A DNA stretch of 36,466 bases from Bacteroidaceae bacterium (GTDB lineage Bacteria; Bacteroidota; Bacteroidia; Bacteroidales; Bacteroidaceae), in the NCBI GenBank assembly GCA_017614895.1, contig JAGAAZ010000138.1, forward strand, positions 1 through 36,466, given 5' to 3'. The stretch's first letter is position 1; each line of letters starts with the position of its first letter. Positions 21-36,431 of this stretch are shown here, in pieces. The notes below the pieces were generated by a model. The model did not search any database and had not been told where the DNA came from. It worked only from the letters and a program-made list of their open reading frames with translations. The position numbers and the translations under genes are program-made.

Positions 21-84
21 TTAGCGATATTCTTTAGTAATACTTGTTTGTTTGCAGCTACAAAGTTACTAAAAATATCGCTAA
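21..84. repeat. Long inverted repeat upstream of the restriction gene
   Basis: The left arm at 21-40 (TTAGCGATATTCTTTAGTAA) is matched by its reverse complement at 66-84, with one base missing in the right arm; the spacer is 25 nt. As RNA it would form a stem of about 19 bp. It has no T-run on either side, so it is a poor intrinsic terminator. It could be an operator for a restriction-modification control protein, a structured leader, or the end of a mobile repeat. What lies to the left is outside the window. Confidence 0.7.
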
Positions 85-1015
85 TTACCTAATAATAAGG
101 CATTTATTTTGCAATTATTTTCGTCGAACTCACGTTAATTACGAATATGATTGCAGGGAAGAACTAAACTTCTTGCAAGAAGAATGTGGCACTCACACAC
201 AACTATCACATGCATCCAATATCTGTACAAAGTCAGGTAAAGGAGTGAAAGCAAAAGAAAAAAGGGCTTTAGAAAACGTTATTCCCATCTATGCAGAATA
301 TTTGGGAAACCAAAAAGAACTAAAAGGATACTCGAACGATGTTATAAAAGAACGAGTAAGGTTACTCAATGAATATTATCGAGATTACAACCATTTGCAA
401 TTAGATAGTGTATTTAGCTCTCAAGGCAAGTTCCGTTCTACCATTCTGGAAGAGTTTATGTATATTCTCTTTAGAGATTATGTGGCAAATTTGAAACGCA
501 AATACAAAGATGCTGACAACCTCATACAAGGTGGTGCGGCAAAAGCATATACAAATTTATATTTTACAGCATCAGGCATTGAAAACTTCGTGAAAGAGCC
601 TAATGTGGAGATAAATGTAAAAGACCAAGACTTTGCCATATACAGAAAGGTCGAGTTGAGTATTGATGGCAAAAGTAAAGAGATTAAAGTTCCTATTGTT
701 GCCGTCGAAAACAAGACATATCTTGACAAAACCATGCTTGAAGGTGTGATAGCTACAGCTGAAAAACTGAAGTCAGGGAATCCTTATACACGTTTTGTGG
801 TTGTCTCGGAAAACTATGACGTAGACTTAAAAGTCGACCCTATTTATTCTCGTATTGACCAAATATACGTACTTCGGAAGTCTAAAAGGAAAGAGTATTT
901 CTCTCCTATAGACGCTGATGTCGTCATTCGCTTTTTCAATGAAACCAAACAGCACATTGAGCGTCCGTGGTCAAACATTGAAGCGAAAATGAGAGAAGAA
1001 GGAGTTATCATGTAA
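44..1015 (+). CDS. Probable type II restriction endonuclease, Bpu10I-like
   Basis: Likely a DNA-cutting enzyme of a type II restriction system. The second half carries an acidic pair around residues 194-196 followed by VPIVAVENKTYLDKTML, where E222-x-K224 fits the ExK half of a PD-(D/E)xK nuclease site. This arrangement resembles the Bpu10I restriction endonuclease family as I remember it. The start is uncertain: the only in-frame ATG (44) lies inside the inverted repeat at 21-84, and the first 50-60 residues look unlike coding sequence. A start near the GTG at 245, or a non-ATG codon just before residue 55, is more plausible. No methyltransferase is visible, so the partner is probably left of the window. 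It sits beside two toxin-antitoxin loci, which suggests a defence or accessory island. Confidence 0.55.
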   Translation: MFVCSYKVTKNIANYLIIRHLFCNYFRRTHVNYEYDCREELNFLQEECGTHTQLSHASNICTKSGKGVKAKEKRALENVIPIYAEYLGNQKELKGYSNDVIKERVRLLNEYYRDYNHLQLDSVFSSQGKFRSTILEEFMYILFRDYVANLKRKYKDADNLIQGGAAKAYTNLYFTASGIENFVKEPNVEINVKDQDFAIYRKVELSIDGKSKEIKVPIVAVENKTYLDKTMLEGVIATAEKLKSGNPYTRFVVVSENYDVDLKVDPIYSRIDQIYVLRKSKRKEYFSPIDADVVIRFFNETKQHIERPWSNIEAKMREEGVIM

Positions 1016-30954: not shown

Positions 30955-32223
30955 ATGAAGGAAACGATTTGCGCTATCGCTACTGCTACAGGAGGTGCAT
31001 TAGGAATTATCCGCATATCGGGAAACCAAACTCTTGAGATTCTTTCCCGCATATTCACCAAGGACTTGACTAAAGCCAAACCCAACACTATCCATTATGG
31101 TCACATTGCCGACATCGACGAGGTGCTGGTGTCCGTTTTTCGTGTTCCCCACTCCTACACAGGCGAAGACTCCGCAGAAATCTCATGTCACGGTTCCCGA
31201 TATATCCTCAACAAAGTCTTGGAACTCTTGGTGCAAAACGGCTGTCGACTCGCTAACCCTGGTGAGTTCACACAACGTGCCTACCTCAACGGAAAGCTTG
31301 ACCTCAGCCAAGCAGAAGCTGTAGCTGACCTCATTGCTTCCTCCAACAAGGCAACCCACGACATCGCCCTCTCCTAGCTGCGAGGTCATTTCTCCTCCGA
31401 ATTATCTCTTCTTCGCGACCAGCTCCTGAAACTCACCTCCTTATTAGAACTCGAACTTGATTTCTCCGATCACGAAGATCTCGAATTTGCCGACCGCACC
31501 GAACTCTTGGAACTTGCTCAAAAGATAGATGCACGCATCACCCATCTTGCTGACACTTTCCACACCGGTAACGCCCTCAAGAACGGCATTCCCGTCGCCA
31601 TCGTTGGTGCTCCTAATGTGGGTAAATCAACCCTCCTCAATGCCCTTGTCGGTGAGGAACGAGCCATCGTCAGCGACATCCAAGGAACCACCCGCGATGC
31701 CATCGAAGACACCATCCAACTGGGTGGCATCACCTTCCGATTCATCGACACAGCAGGCATCCGCCACACCGATGACCACGTTGAACGCCTCGGCATCGAC
31801 CGCTCCCTCGGAGCAGCCCAACGTGCCGCCATCATCCTGATGATGACCGAACCCGGTGTTCCCTACCCCGACATCCCAGTCCGCCAAGACCAAACCGTCA
31901 TCCGCATCGAAAACAAGACCGAAACCTTCCAAGCCAAATATGGCATCGGACTCGACAATCTCCGCCAACAGCTCATCGATGCAGCCCCCAAAACCGCGGA
32001 CACCGACATCATCATCACCAATGCCCGCCACTACGAAGCCCTCACCCTCGCCCACGACTCCCTCCTCCGCGTCATCGAAGGCCTCCATCAACAACTCAGC
32101 GGAGACCTCCTATCCGAAGACCTCCGCCTCACCCTCAACCACCTCGCCGACATCACTGGCGGTCAAATCACCCCCCAAGAAACCTTGAACAACATCTTCA
32201 GCACATTCTGCGTGGGGAAATAG
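30955..32223 (+). pseudogene. mnmE: tRNA modification GTPase MnmE with an internal TAG
   Basis: With MnmG, MnmE modifies the wobble uridine of several tRNAs. The frame runs 140 codons, meets TAG at 31375-31377, then stays open in the same frame to TAA at 32221, for 422 codons in all. The TAG falls between IALS and LRGHFSSELSLLRDQL, where relatives have Gln; CAG to TAG is one transition. N-terminal folate-binding domain ([45 protein letters not shown]) and G domain (GAPNVGKST at about 218-226, GTTRD, DTAGIR) are intact. G4 reads NKTE rather than NKxD. The C-terminal FCxGK is kept (FCVGK). TAG serves as a true stop elsewhere here (permease, VanW), so recoding is unlikely. Confidence 0.88.
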
Positions 32224-32226
32224 GCT

Positions 32227-32253
32227 GTAACTAATTGAAGTACAATTAGTTAT
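32227..32253 (+). terminator. Hairpin just after mnmE
   Basis: TAACTAATTG-AAGTA-CAATTAGTTA is a perfect 10-bp stem 4 nt after the mnmE stop codon. It is A/T rich and lacks a clear T-run, so it would be a weak terminator. Confidence 0.45.
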
Positions 32254-32408
32254 AACATTATATTAAAGTATTTTAACAAGCCAACGAAACAAAACAGAAA
32301 TTAAATGTAATTATCTATAGGACAGTGAATTGTCCACATTTTTAATCAAGTTTCATGATTACATTCCGCATAAGATTTCGTTAGGAGTGATGGAAAAACC
32401 GTTCAAAA

Positions 32409-32474
32409 ATCTGCAAATATCTGAGACTCATTTTGAGGGTTGTTTACACCCCATATTTTCAGATATTTGCAGAT
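32409..32474. repeat. 16-bp perfect inverted repeat with a structured spacer
   Basis: ATCTGCAAATATCTGA (32409-32424) and its exact complement (32459-32474) flank 34 nt. The spacer can form two smaller stems (CTCA-TTT-TGAG, and GGTTGTTTACACC with short ends), giving a three-way-junction shape. The gap 32254-32619 around it holds no convincing gene. It may be a structured RNA, a miniature mobile element or a protein site. Confidence 0.6.
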
Positions 32475-32619
32475 GTTATCATTTTACCAAATCAACATCC
32501 AGTCTTGCCTTTGAACAAGAAATGACACCGAACAAACACAGAGGGCGCTTATAGGGAACTTATGAGGTATGTTGGAGGTGCATTGGAGATAAGCATGACA
32601 AAGAGATGAGAAGAACATA

Positions 32620-32651
32620 ACAAAATCGAGGCAAAAAAGCCCCGATTTTGT
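32620..32651 (-). terminator. Terminator-like hairpin after the surface cluster
   Basis: ACAAAATCGAGGC-AAAAAA-GCCCCGATTTTGT forms a stem of 13 positions with one mismatch. Read on the minus strand the loop is TTTTTT. It lies downstream of the minus-strand lipoprotein cluster and the barrel remnant. Confidence 0.6.
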
Positions 32652-32665
32652 AAAATATCCATTCA

Positions 32666-32746
32666 TCAGAATCTCATGCCCAATGCGGCATTGATGTACA
32701 GTCGTTCTGGTATCCGTATGTTCTCAAACTTCAACTCTCTGGCTTC
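32666..32746 (-). pseudogene. Orphan C-terminal strands of an outer membrane barrel
   Basis: Overlapping and following the stop of the P-loop lipoprotein gene, another minus-strand frame reads EARELKFENIRIPERLYINA then ALGMRF and stops (32666-32668). IRIPERLYINAALGMRF, ending in Phe, has the pattern of the last two strands of TonB-dependent or related outer membrane barrels in this phylum. No start codon or upstream barrel exists in this frame; the residues before it are out-of-frame sequence of the neighbouring gene. It looks like a fossil left by deletion or replacement. Confidence 0.5.
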
Positions 32747-33597
32747 AGAACGGCTTGAGTCTGTTCGTCGGTCAATTTGCCAGAGTTGATATAACTCCAC
32801 ATGATCATGTAGAGCTTGTTCTGCATGTCGGCATCCATCGTGTAGTCCCACATCTTCGCATCCTCCTTGCTCACTTCCTTGCCGCCGCTGTTGTGGCTGT
32901 TGTCCAGATAGTGGACTTCCATGTCGGGGTAGTGCTCATCGAAGTACTCGATGCGTCCATGGTAAGAGGGGAAGCTTGTGATGAAGGTGTAATAACGGAT
33001 GGCACGGTTGGTAACCGTGAGACGCTCCATGCAGTTGGTGAAGGCTGTCTCGGCATCGTTATATACATAGATAACGGAGGGTGTAAATCCCTTTGCATTG
33101 CTTCGAGCCACTTTTTTGTCGAAACTTGACACGTCAACGTATGCACCATCATAGATGACACCCATCTGGCTGGCTCTCTGCTGAAGTTCGGGATTGTTCC
33201 TCAAACTTGCCGACTTTCCACAGCCGTACATTCCCATGGTGAAAAGTATTGTTTTGTTGTCGGCTGCGGTGGCGCGTTCCATCAGGCGTGCAAACACCTC
33301 ATCGTCGATGACGTGGCTGGCATCCTTGTAATCCATCACATTCAGACCTGTATAGCCGATCTTTGAGAGCATGGCTCTGGTTGCATCGGGATCCAGCAGG
33401 TTTCCACAGTCAGCCATATACACATCAACAAGTGAGTCCAGGTGCGCCTCTGTCCATTCCACGGCAGCCTCGCCAGTCAGGACGAGAGGCTCTGTTTTTT
33501 TGACTTCGTCATGGTCATCGTTGCTACACGATGTGAACACACTTGTGCCGCAGAGAGTCAGGATGGCGGCAAGCATCCATAATAATGTCTTTTTCAT
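32731..33597 (-). CDS. Lipoprotein with a P-loop, zeta-toxin/kinase-like domain
   Basis: 288 residues. Lipoprotein signal with SC at C24 (VFTSCSNDDHDE). A helical region follows (VEWTEAHLDSLVDVYMADCG). Residues 116-129, TILFTMGMYGCGKS, are a strand plus Walker A (G122-x4-GKS). Downstream come GVIYDGAYVDVSSFDKKVA (149-163), KGFTPSVIYVYNDAETAFTN (169-188) and ERLTVTNRAIRYY (191-203): a strand-Asp, a strand, then an Arg-rich helix, the order seen in zeta toxins and small-molecule kinases. An exported P-loop kinase is unexpected because ATP is scarce outside the cytoplasm. Assignment is by eye; a structural search is needed. Last gene of the minus-strand cluster, 35 nt after the fimbrillin-like gene. 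Confidence 0.6.
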   Translation of the reverse strand: MKKTLLWMLAAILTLCGTSVFTSCSNDDHDEVKKTEPLVLTGEAAVEWTEAHLDSLVDVYMADCGNLLDPDATRAMLSKIGYTGLNVMDYKDASHVIDDEVFARLMERATAADNKTILFTMGMYGCGKSASLRNNPELQQRASQMGVIYDGAYVDVSSFDKKVARSNAKGFTPSVIYVYNDAETAFTNCMERLTVTNRAIRYYTFITSFPSYHGRIEYFDEHYPDMEVHYLDNSHNSGGKEVSKEDAKMWDYTMDADMQNKLYMIMWSYINSGKLTDEQTQAVLKPES

Positions 33598-33632
33598 TTA
33601 TATCAAGAATTAGAGAATTTGAGAATAGTTGT

Positions 33633-34931
33633 TTAGAATGCGAGGATTGCACGGAAATAATTTATATCGTATGGATCTATAGCATCCTTGAAACTAATAC
33701 CATTATCACTCTTGGAGACAGAATATCCACCATCAGAGCTATCATGTTTAGCCCAATAATCGCGTTGATCATCCAGTGGAGAACCACCTGCTGCGGAAAG
33801 CTTTGAGTTGAGCGCGTTATAGCTATGGCAGTTTGCAATGATATTGTTCCAATCTGACTGGGTTGGAACACGCCATGAGCCTCCCGAAACAAATGCTTTT
33901 CCCGTTGCTGTTGTTTGGGCAGTGCCCAAGGTAATTTTACCTTCATCAGCTAATGCAAAAGCGATACCATGACCTGTTCCGCTGACGTAGGCTATCATGG
34001 CGACTGCTGTATTTCCTGTAGGCACATCACTGGCTTTGGCATAGACATTACCATCTGAACCCACAACACTGCCTACGTAGTGGGGTGTAACTTCAGGGAG
34101 CGTGATGGGATATGCCTTAACCTTCATAGGTACTGTTATCACGTAGTACTGACCATGAGAGAAACTTACGGCCGTTTTACGATAGGTGTAGATTCCCTCT
34201 GCCGTTGTGGCAGTCAATATCAGGTTTCCTGTTATGCCACGCAGGGCACAGTAAATCTCGTTCGTAGTTTCGCTTGGGGTGATGACAATGTCGTCCATAG
34301 TGCTTTTGCCCGACTTCAGCCCACTGGCAGAAATGCGCAGGCTGGTAGGGTTGACGGGGTCGGCGCCATTTTTAAGTATGAACTTCACAATGGCTTGTTG
34401 GTTGGTGAACGTCACCGAAGAAGCAGCATCGACGTTGTCACCATCAATGGTGATATTGGTTGCTGCAGTAGCGTAGTTGTATTTTGCAGAAATGTCGGCA
34501 AGCGTTCCAACCTGACCCGTGTACGACCATTCCTGACGGGGGTACTGGAGATTCAGTTTCGGATTTTCTGGAATACTGATTTCTATGGATATGGCTCCAT
34601 TCAACTTTGCCGTAGCGGCATTGGCATTGGGTGTCAAAGAACCTGTGAACCATTTGTTATCGTAACTGACGTAAACATGCTCTGTCGTTGCCCACTCAGC
34701 ATTTAACCCTTCGCTGGATTCGGTCAAGACACGAGTGCTGGCATGATTGTCAGCATCTTCAAATCCCGCTTTTGTGGCATCCACAGTCATGAAATAGGTC
34801 TTTCCAGCCACTATACCTTTCTGCTCCACAGAATCATCATCTGACGAACAAGCGATAAAGGTCACCACAGCCATCAGTAGGGCTGCCAAACTTAAACTCT
34901 TGAACTCTTGAACTTTTGAACTTTTCATCAT
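33633..34931 (-). CDS. Fimbrillin-like lipoprotein with a C-terminal FISUMP-like domain
   Basis: 432 residues from MMKSSKVQ (34931), chosen because GGGGAGG lies just upstream. Signal ends FIAC (C28), then SSDDDS. Residues about 40-250 resemble Mfa/fimbrillin lipoproteins: YFMTVDATKAG, WATTEHVYVSYDNKWFTGSL, SVTFTNQQAIVKFILKNG, ISASGLKSGKST, HGQYYVITVPMK. The last 150 residues (YVGSVVGSDGNVYAKASD, GGSWRVPTQSDWNNII, RDYWAKHDSSDGGY, YFRAILAF) resemble the Fib_succ_major type domain. Probably a surface adhesin or pilus-like subunit. Octamer repeats (34891-34922) encode SSKVQEFKSLSL in the signal peptide. Confidence 0.75.
   Translation of the reverse strand: MMKSSKVQEFKSLSLAALLMAVVTFIACSSDDDSVEQKGIVAGKTYFMTVDATKAGFEDADNHASTRVLTESSEGLNAEWATTEHVYVSYDNKWFTGSLTPNANAATAKLNGAISIEISIPENPKLNLQYPRQEWSYTGQVGTLADISAKYNYATAATNITIDGDNVDAASSVTFTNQQAIVKFILKNGADPVNPTSLRISASGLKSGKSTMDDIVITPSETTNEIYCALRGITGNLILTATTAEGIYTYRKTAVSFSHGQYYVITVPMKVKAYPITLPEVTPHYVGSVVGSDGNVYAKASDVPTGNTAVAMIAYVSGTGHGIAFALADEGKITLGTAQTTATGKAFVSGGSWRVPTQSDWNNIIANCHSYNALNSKLSAAGGSPLDDQRDYWAKHDSSDGGYSVSKSDNGISFKDAIDPYDINYFRAILAF
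34891..34922 (-). repeat. Four tandem octamers in the fimbrillin signal peptide
   Basis: On the plus strand: CTTAAACT, CTTGAACT, CTTGAACT and TTTGAACT. On the coding strand AGTTCAAG units give KSSKVQEFKSLSL. The 8-bp period resembles the array at 4949-4980. Confidence 0.85.
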
Positions 34932-34944
34932 TGTGTCCTCCCCA

Positions 34945-35097
34945 TTATTCTGATTCACCCCATTCTTCAGTTTTAGCCTTGTGGTAATTCTGGAGTGTTG
35001 CATCCACGCCTGGACTCCCCTGCAGCATACTAACCCGCTGTCGGAGAGCAGTAACCCTGATGGTGGGTTTCAGATAAGTTTTTCTTTTTGTCTTCAT
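34945..35097 (-). CDS. 50-residue small protein, coupled to the phosphatase gene
   Basis: ATG at 35097-35095 overlaps the phosphatase stop codon (ATGA); TAA is at 34947-34945, 13 nt before the fimbrillin start. The protein is MKTKRKTYLKPTIRVTALRQ then RVSMLQGSPGVDATLQNYHK and AKTEEWGESE. A basic start, YxKPxxxV, a short hydrophobic stretch, then GSPG and an acidic tail match a pattern I recall in many short Bacteroidales proteins of unknown function encoded near surface lipoproteins. No signal peptide is obvious. The stop-start overlap and good spacing to the next gene support a real gene. Confidence 0.7.
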   Translation of the reverse strand: MKTKRKTYLKPTIRVTALRQRVSMLQGSPGVDATLQNYHKAKTEEWGESE

Positions 35098-35948
35098 TTT
35101 GCCATTGTCTTTTGTCCGTTCTGGATGATGATGCCACGGCTGTTGTCATCAGCAGGCAAACCGCTGATGGTGTAAGCCCGGGTGGTGGCAGGGTGCTCTA
35201 TAAGCTTAGCCTCGGAAACACCCACTGCGCCGTCGATAATCTTTTGGTACTCGGCACGGGCCTTCTTCAGCTGAGCCTGATATTCATCTGTGCTGACCAC
35301 GTTAGCAAACATGGCTGTGGCAAGAAGCAGCGAAGCATCGGTGTCGCTCTTCCAATGGTGACCGCAGATGACACGATTGTAAGCATAATCCTGAGCACGA
35401 ACCATAATCTCGGGTGTCTTCTCTGGCATCACAGTGCAGAGTGCCAAAGCGAACATATAACCACGAGAGGAGTGGCCTGAAGGATAGCTGAAGGTCTTGG
35501 CCTCCTCCTCGTCTGTTTCGGGTTTCAGCGACGGATCGTGGAAAGTGGCGAAGGGACGTATGCGCTGGTATTTTTTCTTCACTGTGGTATTAGCCTTGCT
35601 GGCATCAGAGACGACACGCTCACACAACAGAATAATCTCAGGAGTGCTCTCCCTGCTCAATTCAATACCAATCACTTTATTATCAAATACTTCATAGAGT
35701 TGTGCAGCCTCATCGAAGAGCGCCTGCTCGCTGACACCATCAATTTCGCGCAGTTCGCGTCCATGCTGATAGTGGAAGAAGTCGTATGCAAATTCTCCAC
35801 TGGTCAGTGATGGTGGCGCCTGAATGAAAGAGTAGAAATCTTCATCGAGGTCGTTTACCACGAAAGGCTCGGGAAATTTTTGTTCCTGAGCGCACAAACG
35901 AGTCACTGTTGAAATGGCAACGATAGCCAATAAAAATATTTTTTTCAT
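35094..35948 (-). CDS. Secreted class A acid phosphatase, PAP2 superfamily
   Basis: 284 residues, signal peptide 1-20 (LCAQ). The complete signature K-x6-RP ... PSGH ... R-x5-H-x3-D is present: K124/R131-P132, PSGH 156-159 (with SSR after), R192, H198 and D202 (NRVICGHHWKSD). H159 and H198 are the acid-base and nucleophile pair. It should release phosphate from monoesters in the periplasm or outside. The last 28 residues (RAYTISGLPADDNSRGIIIQ then NGQKTMAK) resemble a degenerate type IX sorting tail. Second gene of the surface cluster, 24 nt after the lipoprotein gene, overlapping the small-protein gene. Confidence 0.88.
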   Translation of the reverse strand: MKKIFLLAIVAISTVTRLCAQEQKFPEPFVVNDLDEDFYSFIQAPPSLTSGEFAYDFFHYQHGRELREIDGVSEQALFDEAAQLYEVFDNKVIGIELSRESTPEIILLCERVVSDASKANTTVKKKYQRIRPFATFHDPSLKPETDEEEAKTFSYPSGHSSRGYMFALALCTVMPEKTPEIMVRAQDYAYNRVICGHHWKSDTDASLLLATAMFANVVSTDEYQAQLKKARAEYQKIIDGAVGVSEAKLIEHPATTRAYTISGLPADDNSRGIIIQNGQKTMAK

Positions 35949-35972: not shown

Positions 35973-36431
35973 CTATTTGAGAAATACTGGTGTATAGAGG
36001 TCGCTGGTTCCTGTGGGTGACAGGGAAGCATCGAAGCGTGTCCAGTAAGTAGTGAAGATGCGGTGAAGCTGGTCACAGTAATAATACAAAGTGATGGATT
36101 CACCAGACGTGTCAGCGGCGATTGTGAGGGGGAACATCCACTTTCCGTCCACCTGTTTGGGTTGAGCCACACCACGCACCTCGTCATCAATCTTAGCGCA
36201 GACCAAGTCAGCATCAGAGACATAGCTCTGGAGCGTGTCTTGAAGATAGATATCCACGCTCATGACCTGCTCATATAGGTCGAAATTGGGGACGGCCCAA
36301 TCAGGACGGGCTTCTTCACCTTTTTGAATCTCCAGGGAAGGGGGATTCGGTTGGTCATCGTCGTTCGATGAGCAGCCCCACGCCATGAAGGCGAGGGCTG
36401 CTATAGCTAATATAGTCTTTTTCATTTTCAT
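35973..36431 (-). CDS. Small lipoprotein of unknown function
   Basis: 152 residues. Lipoprotein signal ends AWGC (C20) with SSNDDDQPNPP after it. The rest is beta-rich: NFDLYEQVMSVDIYLQDTLQSY, DADLVCAKIDDEVRGVAQPK, WMFPLTIAADTSGESITLYYYC. DDEVRGVA followed by a short strand is a pattern I recall in Bacteroides and Prevotella surface proteins with Ig-like domains. First visible gene of the cluster; its promoter may lie beyond the window edge, since only 35 nt remain. Confidence 0.6.
   Translation of the reverse strand: MKMKKTILAIAALAFMAWGCSSNDDDQPNPPSLEIQKGEEARPDWAVPNFDLYEQVMSVDIYLQDTLQSYVSDADLVCAKIDDEVRGVAQPKQVDGKWMFPLTIAADTSGESITLYYYCDQLHRIFTTYWTRFDASLSPTGTSDLYTPVFLK

Follow-up and report, generated by a model that had tools for sequence, protein, structure and literature searches.

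Kinases need ATP and are regarded as enzymes of the cytoplasm, and the question raised by the locus described here is what a kinase does when its gene opens with a lipoprotein export signal. The gene is an open reading frame (ORF) of 288 amino acids (aa) at 32731..33597 on the minus strand of contig JAGAAZ010000138.1 of a Bacteroidaceae bacterium (assembly GCA_017614895.1, 83% complete); the window that was analysed is this one whole contig, 36,466 bases long. A sequence-only reading had proposed that the ORF codes for an exported P-loop kinase-like lipoprotein clustered with a secreted phosphatase and a fimbrillin. Computation supports a kinase fold with a kept active site, an export signal, a recurrent operon and an exchange of genes at the end of that operon. 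The reading that we prefer, at a probability of about 0.45, is that the protein is exported and works outside the cell as a kinase of nucleotides or sugar nucleotides, and that its gene is the optional last member of an extracytoplasmic phosphate/nucleotide operon.

The kinase domain and its relatives

When the protein was compared with Pfam, Zeta_toxin matched residues 143-223 at 25.9 bits against a cut-off of 22.3 bits, which taken alone says little because the same model passes its own cut-off in 131 of 247 sampled genomes. The AlphaFold model, built on an alignment of 27 sequences (the window protein and 26 loci), has a predicted local distance difference test score (pLDDT) of 81.8 and a predicted template modelling score (pTM) of 0.80. 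When this model was searched with Foldseek against the PDB, ranks 1-6 were all chains of zeta_1 of Neisseria gonorrhoeae (6epi, 6eph and 6epg), with expectation values (E) of 1.3e-8 to 5.4e-8, a probability of 1.00 and a template modelling score by query of 0.62-0.67; ranks 7-11 and 13-16 were streptococcal zeta, PezT and AvrRxo1, and rank 12 was an adenylate kinase. A 14-member profile matched 6EPH at E 1.2e-9, aligning 17-256 with 23-264 and so covering nearly the whole mature protein. The single protein gave no match to the PDB sequences with phmmer, although the profile did, no zeta family was named for it in NCBIfam, and PHROGs gave no useful named family. From model and profile together it is well supported that the window protein has a true P-loop kinase domain, of the rewired type known from gonococcal zeta_1, and the zeta-like P-loop kinase expected from the sequence alone is borne out.

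In the subclass of gonococcal zeta_1 (ng_zeta1; PDB 6EPG/6EPH/6EPI) two blocks are swapped along the chain, and the site comprises Asp56 as the likely base and Lys115 in the P-loop together with Lys59, Asn75, Arg175 and Arg181; the enzyme acts on UDP-sugars, phosphorylating sugar C4'-OH groups, and Lys59 and Asn75 bind the carboxyethyl group of UNAM (PMC5923241). In the near full-length profile alignment, Asp56 pairs with Asp71 (33385..33387, minus strand as for all kinase features), Lys59 with Arg74, Lys115 with Lys128, Glu133 with Asp150, Arg175 with Arg192 and Arg181 with Arg198. Lys128 lies in the Walker A motif GMYGCGKS (residues 122-129, 33211..33234) and the two arginines bound the segment of residues 192-198 (33004..33024). 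As in ng_zeta1, the equivalent of the catalytic Asp sits upstream, that is N-terminal, of the P-loop. The earlier suggestion of a catalytic Asp downstream of it has to be given up: the base would be Asp71, and the downstream Asp150 is the equivalent of Glu133.

Conservation was examined in 39 distinct proteins, namely 28 of type A (the type of the window, 282-353 aa as listed), seven of type B (649-662 aa, in which a nucleoside-hydrolase-like domain precedes the kinase domain), three of type C (285-311 aa) and L051. Asp71, Arg74, Asn86, Gly122, Gly127, Lys128, Arg198 and Asn236 are identical in 39/39, and so is the Walker A pattern GxxxxGK[ST]; Arg192 is R in 38 and K in one, Asp232 is D in 38 and T in one, and position 150 is D in 15 and E in 24. 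Structure prediction, fold search and conservation were the checks proposed with the original reading, and all three support a P-loop kinase of zeta type. The counterpart of Lys59 is thus an Arg throughout, and the invariant Asn86 falls two alignment positions off Asn75, in a low-confidence part of the model. The ratio of nonsynonymous to synonymous substitution rates (dN/dS) has a median of 0.15 and a range of 0.07-0.31 (182 unsaturated of 190 pairs, 20 type A genes), and by this measure the kinase family is under purifying selection. With the P-loop in all 39 proteins and a dN/dS of 0.15, a chance Walker A motif was rejected.

This conservation also bears on whether the protein might be an adhesin or sensor that binds or hydrolyses ATP, having kept nucleotide binding without being a kinase. 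Such a role would have a precedent in OppA of Mycoplasma hominis, which is likewise a surface P-loop lipoprotein using extracellular ATP, is an ecto-ATPase and has a Walker motif that matters for adhesion (PMC3179953), and it would suit the fimbrillin-like neighbours. OppA, however, is an ATPase within a peptide-binding protein and not a zeta-type kinase, and here Asp71, Arg74, Asn86 and Arg198 on the acceptor side are conserved like the P-loop, which speaks against mere ATP binding because ATP binding alone would not need them; we regard an adhesin or sensor as improbable.

The kinase is a member of the zeta-fold kinase superfamily and not a toxin-antitoxin zeta. The toxin of epsilon/zeta systems is cytoplasmic and has an adjacent antitoxin, whereas export signals are found in three subfamilies here and the window kinase has a fimbrillin gene upstream and ORFs of 60 and 37 aa downstream. 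It differs from ng_zeta1 itself in being an exported lipoprotein, in having no antitoxin gene that could be found adjacent and in lacking the C-terminal OB-fold, the match covering chain residues 23-264 of 401, where the window protein ends. With streptococcal zeta/PezT and AvrRxo1 (PF06414), the last a type III effector by its NCBIfam name, it shares the P-loop kinase superfamily but differs in the order of elements, in the short stretch from the P-loop to the second acidic motif and in the export signal; the NCBIfam model XopAJ/AvrRxo1 matched L070 at 9.9e-6, below its cut-off. The source genome holds a second zeta-family match (L090, G000:C63:6927-7400), a 209-aa open frame with a Pfam E of 1.8e-10.

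The 27 orthologues are 53-65% identical to the window protein and stem from records of Prevotella, Prevotellaceae and Bacteroidales, of which three name goat or yak stomach compartments and many carry RUG, which we take to stand for rumen. Before counting, L028-L030, L058-L065 and L069 were dropped as the window's own gene or repeats, and so were L033-L050 and L052-L057, where the match was essentially confined to the signal peptide. With profile A2 the kinase was found in 15 of the 399 genomes searched from the same family as the window and in 6 of the 45 from its genus; in a sample of 296 genomes of the phylum it gave no believable match beyond the own genome, the three others being weak (E 3.6e-4 to 9.0e-4) and unrelated by eye. 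The narrower profile A1, from whose alignment L016 was left out, found the own genome alone among 395 genomes of the class (1/395). A phage- or plasmid-borne source of the relatives was rejected, none being found in viral contigs, plasmids or phages. In the type B proteins (L031, L032, L071 and L074-L077), a nucleoside-hydrolase-like and a kinase domain are fused in one exported protein; when three of them were scanned the former matched PF01156 below its cut-off, at E 2.1e-5 to 2.3e-4, and the acid cluster ILDxDFGSSTDD is present in all seven. This fusion may tell the substrate. Galactanase genes of glycoside hydrolase family 53 (GH53) adjoin the type C kinases L108 (10554-11579) and L109 (7991-9016), and another (L117, 12200-13471) lies within 2 kb of L051, the assignment being by Pfam for L108 and L117 and by eye for L109.

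Export signal and location

Residues 1-24 of the window kinase (33526..33597) read as a lipoprotein signal with the lipobox FTS-C24, in which Cys24 would be the site of lipid attachment, and are followed by SNDDHDE, so that the mature end reads C-S-N-D-D. The lipoprotein signal on which the original reading was built thus holds, and it recurs in all 28 type A proteins, in which, as judged like all export signals here by pattern and by eye, a signal-like N-terminus leads to a Cys with S or T as the next residue and then acidic residues; the form C-X-K-(D/E)2 is seen in 19 of them. The lipobox pattern search matched 26 of the 28, missing L006 and L016 because their listed ORFs start far upstream. 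Among type B proteins the pattern matched five of seven (not L071 and L077), and type C proteins have, by eye, a signal peptide without a lipobox Cys. In Capnocytophaga the optimal surface export signal is C-X-K-(D/E)2-X, and for B. fragilis SDDDD has been proposed (PMC5080379). In Bacteroides, surface exposure and packing into vesicles go together, and lipoproteins with the acidic signal are enriched in vesicles (PMC6222051). Export of the kinase is well supported by these signals, and the kinase probably sits on the outer face of the outer membrane and on vesicles.

Enzymes that use ATP are as a rule found in the cytoplasm, which could be taken to mean that the kinase is intracellular and its start misread. 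The signal-like N-terminus with Cys and acidic residues in 28/28 type A proteins is difficult to explain in this manner, the other two subfamilies have signal-like N-termini of their own that are different, and a miscalled start was rejected on the signals in all three subfamilies; we give it next to no weight. It was also seen that the signal peptide of the kinase (residues 1-31) has up to 74% identity over about the first 30 residues with many otherwise unrelated ORFs of relatives, as if signal sequences were shuffled between lipoprotein genes.

The operon and the gene at its end

Five minus-strand ORFs follow one another with operon-like spacing, as the sequence-only reading had it, the fifth lying just outside the range which that reading covered. 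The first gene visible before the contig end, which is 35 bases past it, codes for a 152-aa lipoprotein (35973..36431) and has homologues in the genus. After 24 base pairs (bp) it is followed by the gene of an exported class A acid phosphatase (PAP2/PhoC-like, 284 aa, 35094..35948). This gene is overlapped by 4 bp by that of a 50-aa protein (34945..35097), which stands 13 bp before a fimbrillin-like lipoprotein gene (432 aa, 33633..34931; the ORF opens at 35003, and the likelier start, MMKSSKVQ, is at 34931), and the kinase gene follows 35 bp after the latter. The phosphatase, which had been named correctly from its sequence, matches Pfam PAP2 at 5.8e-15 and NCBIfam PhoC at 7.1e-33, the latter below the equivalog cut-off. 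The class A acid phosphatase signature, K-X6-RP / PSGH / (S/N)R-X5-H-X3-D, is present in the window phosphatase, L008 and L138; the phosphatases of L202, L203 and L204 fail it, with HR where (S/N)R is expected. The label fimbrillin is given by look, because no Pfam family matched that protein above cut-off. On the 3' side of the kinase there are a terminator-like hairpin of 13 pairs (32620..32651, minus strand; two terminator-like sites were found in 32200-32760 against 0.2 expected), short ORFs only and then the convergent mnmE (30955-32223, plus strand). An in-frame TAG at 31375-31377 splits mnmE, both parts being in the same frame; its C-terminal part has no other full match in the own genome and three weaker partial matches on contig C9, so that the interrupted gene is either a pseudogene or an assembly error.

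When relatives of the other operon genes were sought in the genus, the 152-aa lipoprotein had homologues at E 1e-6 in 26 of 45 genomes, with the own genome and distant relatives of 260 aa included, and the phosphatase in 24 of 45, again with the own genome included and the wider family counted. Twenty-three regions were then fetched from relatives, and the 152-aa gene was found in 17 of them. In four of the 17 the phosphatase is in the same operon (L138, L202, L203 and L204), in six there is a fimbrillin gene (L137, L202, L203, L204, L209 and L213), and in ten neither is in reach; these counts are not unbiased frequencies because the regions were picked for strong matches or for the Tas1-like gene described below, and L210 is not in them although its genome had a match to the 152-aa gene. 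A protein of 48-50 aa recurs before the fimbrillin gene in the window and in L137 (8166-8312), L204 (8649-8801), L209 (6192-6344) and L213 (9564-9716), and its gene overlaps the stop of the preceding gene by 4 bp in four of the five. In L202 and L204 the 152-aa gene is followed by that of an exported 5'-nucleotidase (PF02872, PF00149), for which the best NCBIfam names are ecto-5'-nucleotidase and UshA, all below the equivalog cut-offs. Around the 27 orthologous kinase genes, the phosphatase adjoins the kinase in L008 alone (gap 124 bp), and a fimbrillin-like gene stands just after the kinase in L014 and about 2 kb before it in L010. Of the five-gene order that was to be tested for conservation, the part with the 152-aa, phosphatase, 50-aa and fimbrillin genes recurs in relatives and the kinase does not belong to it regularly; a fixed five-gene system was rejected, since only parts recur. 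From gene order, the kinase is the optional last gene of this recurrent operon. Near the kinase there is also a HAD-like lipoprotein (Pfam just below cut-off) in four of the 27 loci, but this protein is widespread, occurring in 17 of 45 genomes. In five loci (L002, L010, L013, L020 and L021) the region upstream of the kinase codes for a giant protein (cluster c3) that is rich in glycine over part of its length and measures 2,200-2,600 aa; the L010 copy is cut and has 661 aa.

A second exported lipoprotein, of about 235 aa, was found within about 5 kb of the kinase in six of the 27 loci (L002, L007, L010, L018, L021 and L025) and directly beside it in four of these six. No Pfam family matched it above cut-off. 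Its profile A3, however, matched 6OX6, the type VI effector Tas1, at E 8.2e-18, and its model, modest at a pLDDT of 67, found 6ox6 at 5.7e-10 and then the exported alarmone synthetase of Streptomyces, 8vx3, at 3.4e-5 with Foldseek; the lipobox TSC is present in 6/6. By profile and model, relatives of the window thus have an exported RelA/SpoT-type synthetase that is related to Tas1 and carries an export signal. The domain is rare, being found in 7 of 301 family genomes (two of them weaker, in longer proteins) and in 1 of 45 genus genomes. If the two genes were independent, and with the gene counted anywhere in the genome, the chance of at least 6 of 27 would be 3e-5, a figure that is only a guide because the loci are related and the base rate comes from another sample. 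On the kinase tree the six loci are scattered, requiring six changes of which at least three are forced by supported branches, so that inheritance of a single block does not explain them. L137 has the 152-aa, 50-aa, fimbrillin and Tas1-like genes in this order, with 39 bp between the last two; this is the position of the kinase in the window, where the gap to the fimbrillin gene is 35 bp. In L138 the Tas1-like gene comes after the phosphatase. Among the five Tas1-like loci, two show the operon, two do not, and L139 begins 322 bases before the gene. That the kinase can be exchanged at the operon end with a Tas1-like alarmone synthetase is supported by these computations. In L135 (1498-3117, minus strand), a Tas1-like domain ends a 539-aa protein without an obvious export signal, which by look is perhaps a phage head-type (MuF) toxin, a kind that has been described for other alarmone synthetases.

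What the exported kinase may act on

Neighbours and fusions of the kinase share an extracytoplasmic nucleotide theme, with an acid phosphatase, a 5'-nucleotidase, a nucleoside-hydrolase-like domain and an alarmone synthetase, and because of these and of the UDP-sugar substrates of zeta_1, an ectokinase on sugar nucleotides or similar compounds is the leading reading. The lipoprotein signal would carry the protein across the inner membrane, lipidation would take place at Cys24, and the acidic export signal would probably take it to the outer face of the outer membrane and into vesicles. Outside the cell the P-loop of the zeta_1-type fold would hold ATP, Asp71 would activate the acceptor hydroxyl, Asp150 with Arg192 and Arg198 would position the phosphates, and a sugar hydroxyl on the substrate, a sugar nucleotide or a nucleoside-like compound, would receive the gamma-phosphate. 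Lysed cells of the habitat could be the source of ATP. Surface location, catalysis, substrate class and ATP source are what we infer here. The operon partners outside the cytoplasm would be the class A acid phosphatase and, in relatives, sometimes a 5'-nucleotidase, and a Tas1-like alarmone synthetase could replace the kinase. A wider proposal, which we make tentatively, is that in Prevotella-like bacteria the last gene of this surface operon is an exchangeable ATP-spending transferase, either a zeta_1-type kinase or a Tas1-type pyrophosphokinase, that rewrites nucleotides and sugar nucleotides outside the cell, where exported phosphatases, nucleotidases and nucleoside hydrolases would be at work as well.

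Several observations weigh against an ectokinase in such an operon. The other window genes were not found at E 1e-6 in 24 of the 27 orthologous loci, several of which have short flanks; in L003, L005, L008, L010, L012, L017, L023, L024 and L026 the flank is below 2.2 kb on one side, and some of these absences are unproven because the loci end close to the kinase. Neither the 5'-nucleotidase nor the Tas1-like gene is present in the window. None of the seven Tas1-like genomes is among the 15 kinase genomes, although the numbers are small, and 5/5 of the Tas1-like loci that were fetched show no kinase in the stretch; a shared hot spot of surface genes would account for the co-location equally well. 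The five type B lipoproteins matched by pattern and L051 do not have acidic residues right after the Cys and may for this reason face the periplasm. Model residues 58-64 (window 83-89, including Asn86) have a pLDDT below 50.

The GH53 genes beside two of the three type C kinases and near L051 also count against nucleotides as substrates, as they suit a surface glycan or oligosaccharide, a glycan being among the substrates raised with the original reading. The kinase would then tag sugars freed by glycan-degrading enzymes and the phosphatase would remove the tag, and the sugar C4'-OH groups that zeta_1 phosphorylates are in keeping with this (PMC5923241). The substrate of zeta_1, however, is UDP-sugars and not free glycans, and when seven recurrent neighbour clusters of window-type loci (c1, c2, c4, c5, c6, c10 and c18), the only ones identified, were scanned with Pfam none was glycan-degrading; a glycan substrate is in our view unlikely, though less so than an adhesin or sensor.

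A different use for an exported kinase would be as an antibacterial or anti-protist toxin, carried on the surface or on vesicles, as the original reading also considered for the surface, and active only once inside a neighbouring or predatory cell, whose cytoplasm is rich in ATP and UDP-sugars; lipoprotein toxins that pass between myxobacteria would be a parallel. The closest characterised relatives are toxins (zeta_1, and Tas1 for the exchangeable neighbour), the presence of two toxin-type folds in the same slot is reminiscent of a polymorphic effector system, and acidic-signal lipoproteins are enriched in Bacteroides vesicles (PMC6222051). SitA of myxobacteria consists of outer membrane lipoproteins with toxin domains that vary among its members (PMC5562445). 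SitA toxins, however, come with cognate sitI immunity genes and pass between cells by outer membrane exchange (PMC5562445), whereas no convincing immunity gene was found near the kinase. Between the window kinase and other ORFs of relatives, it is the signal peptides that were seen to be alike. In the window the only ORFs on the same strand 3' of the kinase are the two short ones of 60 and 37 aa, and the terminator-like hairpin falls within the first. When short ORFs (25-150 aa) in the 500 bp following the kinase were compared across the 27 loci, there were five matches, each between two loci, and among clusters of ORFs of at least 60 aa shared by at least two loci only c13, in two loci, was under 100 aa. 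A multi-transmembrane protein (c1) in seven loci may be an unusual immunity gene. We consider a toxin the main alternative to the ectokinase, more plausible than a glycan substrate, but still doubtful.

The exported alarmone synthetases, with Tas1/Apk1 (PDB 6OX6, 8VX3), are a further precedent, being ATP-dependent nucleotide-modifying enzymes of toxin-type fold that leave the cytoplasm; their Sec signals are primarily in Streptomyces, Vibrio and Shewanella clusters, and for SaEAS the authors identified no immunity gene (PMC12691689). Their fold and chemistry are unrelated to those of the kinase, and it is the Tas1-like lipoprotein that shares the operon slot and the neighbourhood. The exported ATP-dependent alarmone synthetase is suited to low substrate outside the cell, and its authors regard signalling and entry into other cells as both possible (PMC12691689); the same choice applies to the window kinase. 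The main text of that paper has no mention of lipoprotein, Prevotella or zeta. Among the literature matches listed, most subscription journals and all preprints being outside the scope, there was no exported, secreted, periplasmic or surface P-loop or zeta kinase family of bacteria, and no extracellular nucleotide-modification system in this phylum is described in the papers found. RelA/SpoT toxin domains are known among polymorphic toxins, where they are delivered by other routes (PMC3482391). In 2011 the surface P-loop NTPase of M. hominis was called the only one localised on the surface (PMC3179953). Streptomyces has long been reported to make alarmones outside the cell, and the enzyme responsible was not identified until 2025 (PMC12691689).

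A family of exported zeta-type kinases that is conserved and under selection, and that shares a slot with an alarmone synthetase, suggests a wider range of ATP-consuming reactions outside cells than has been assumed. It can now be tested directly what the acceptors of these kinases are and whether phosphorylation takes place in the surroundings or within neighbouring cells. If the wider proposal of an exchangeable transferase is true, these bacteria would modify nucleotides outside the cell for signalling, for scavenging or for disarming their neighbours.

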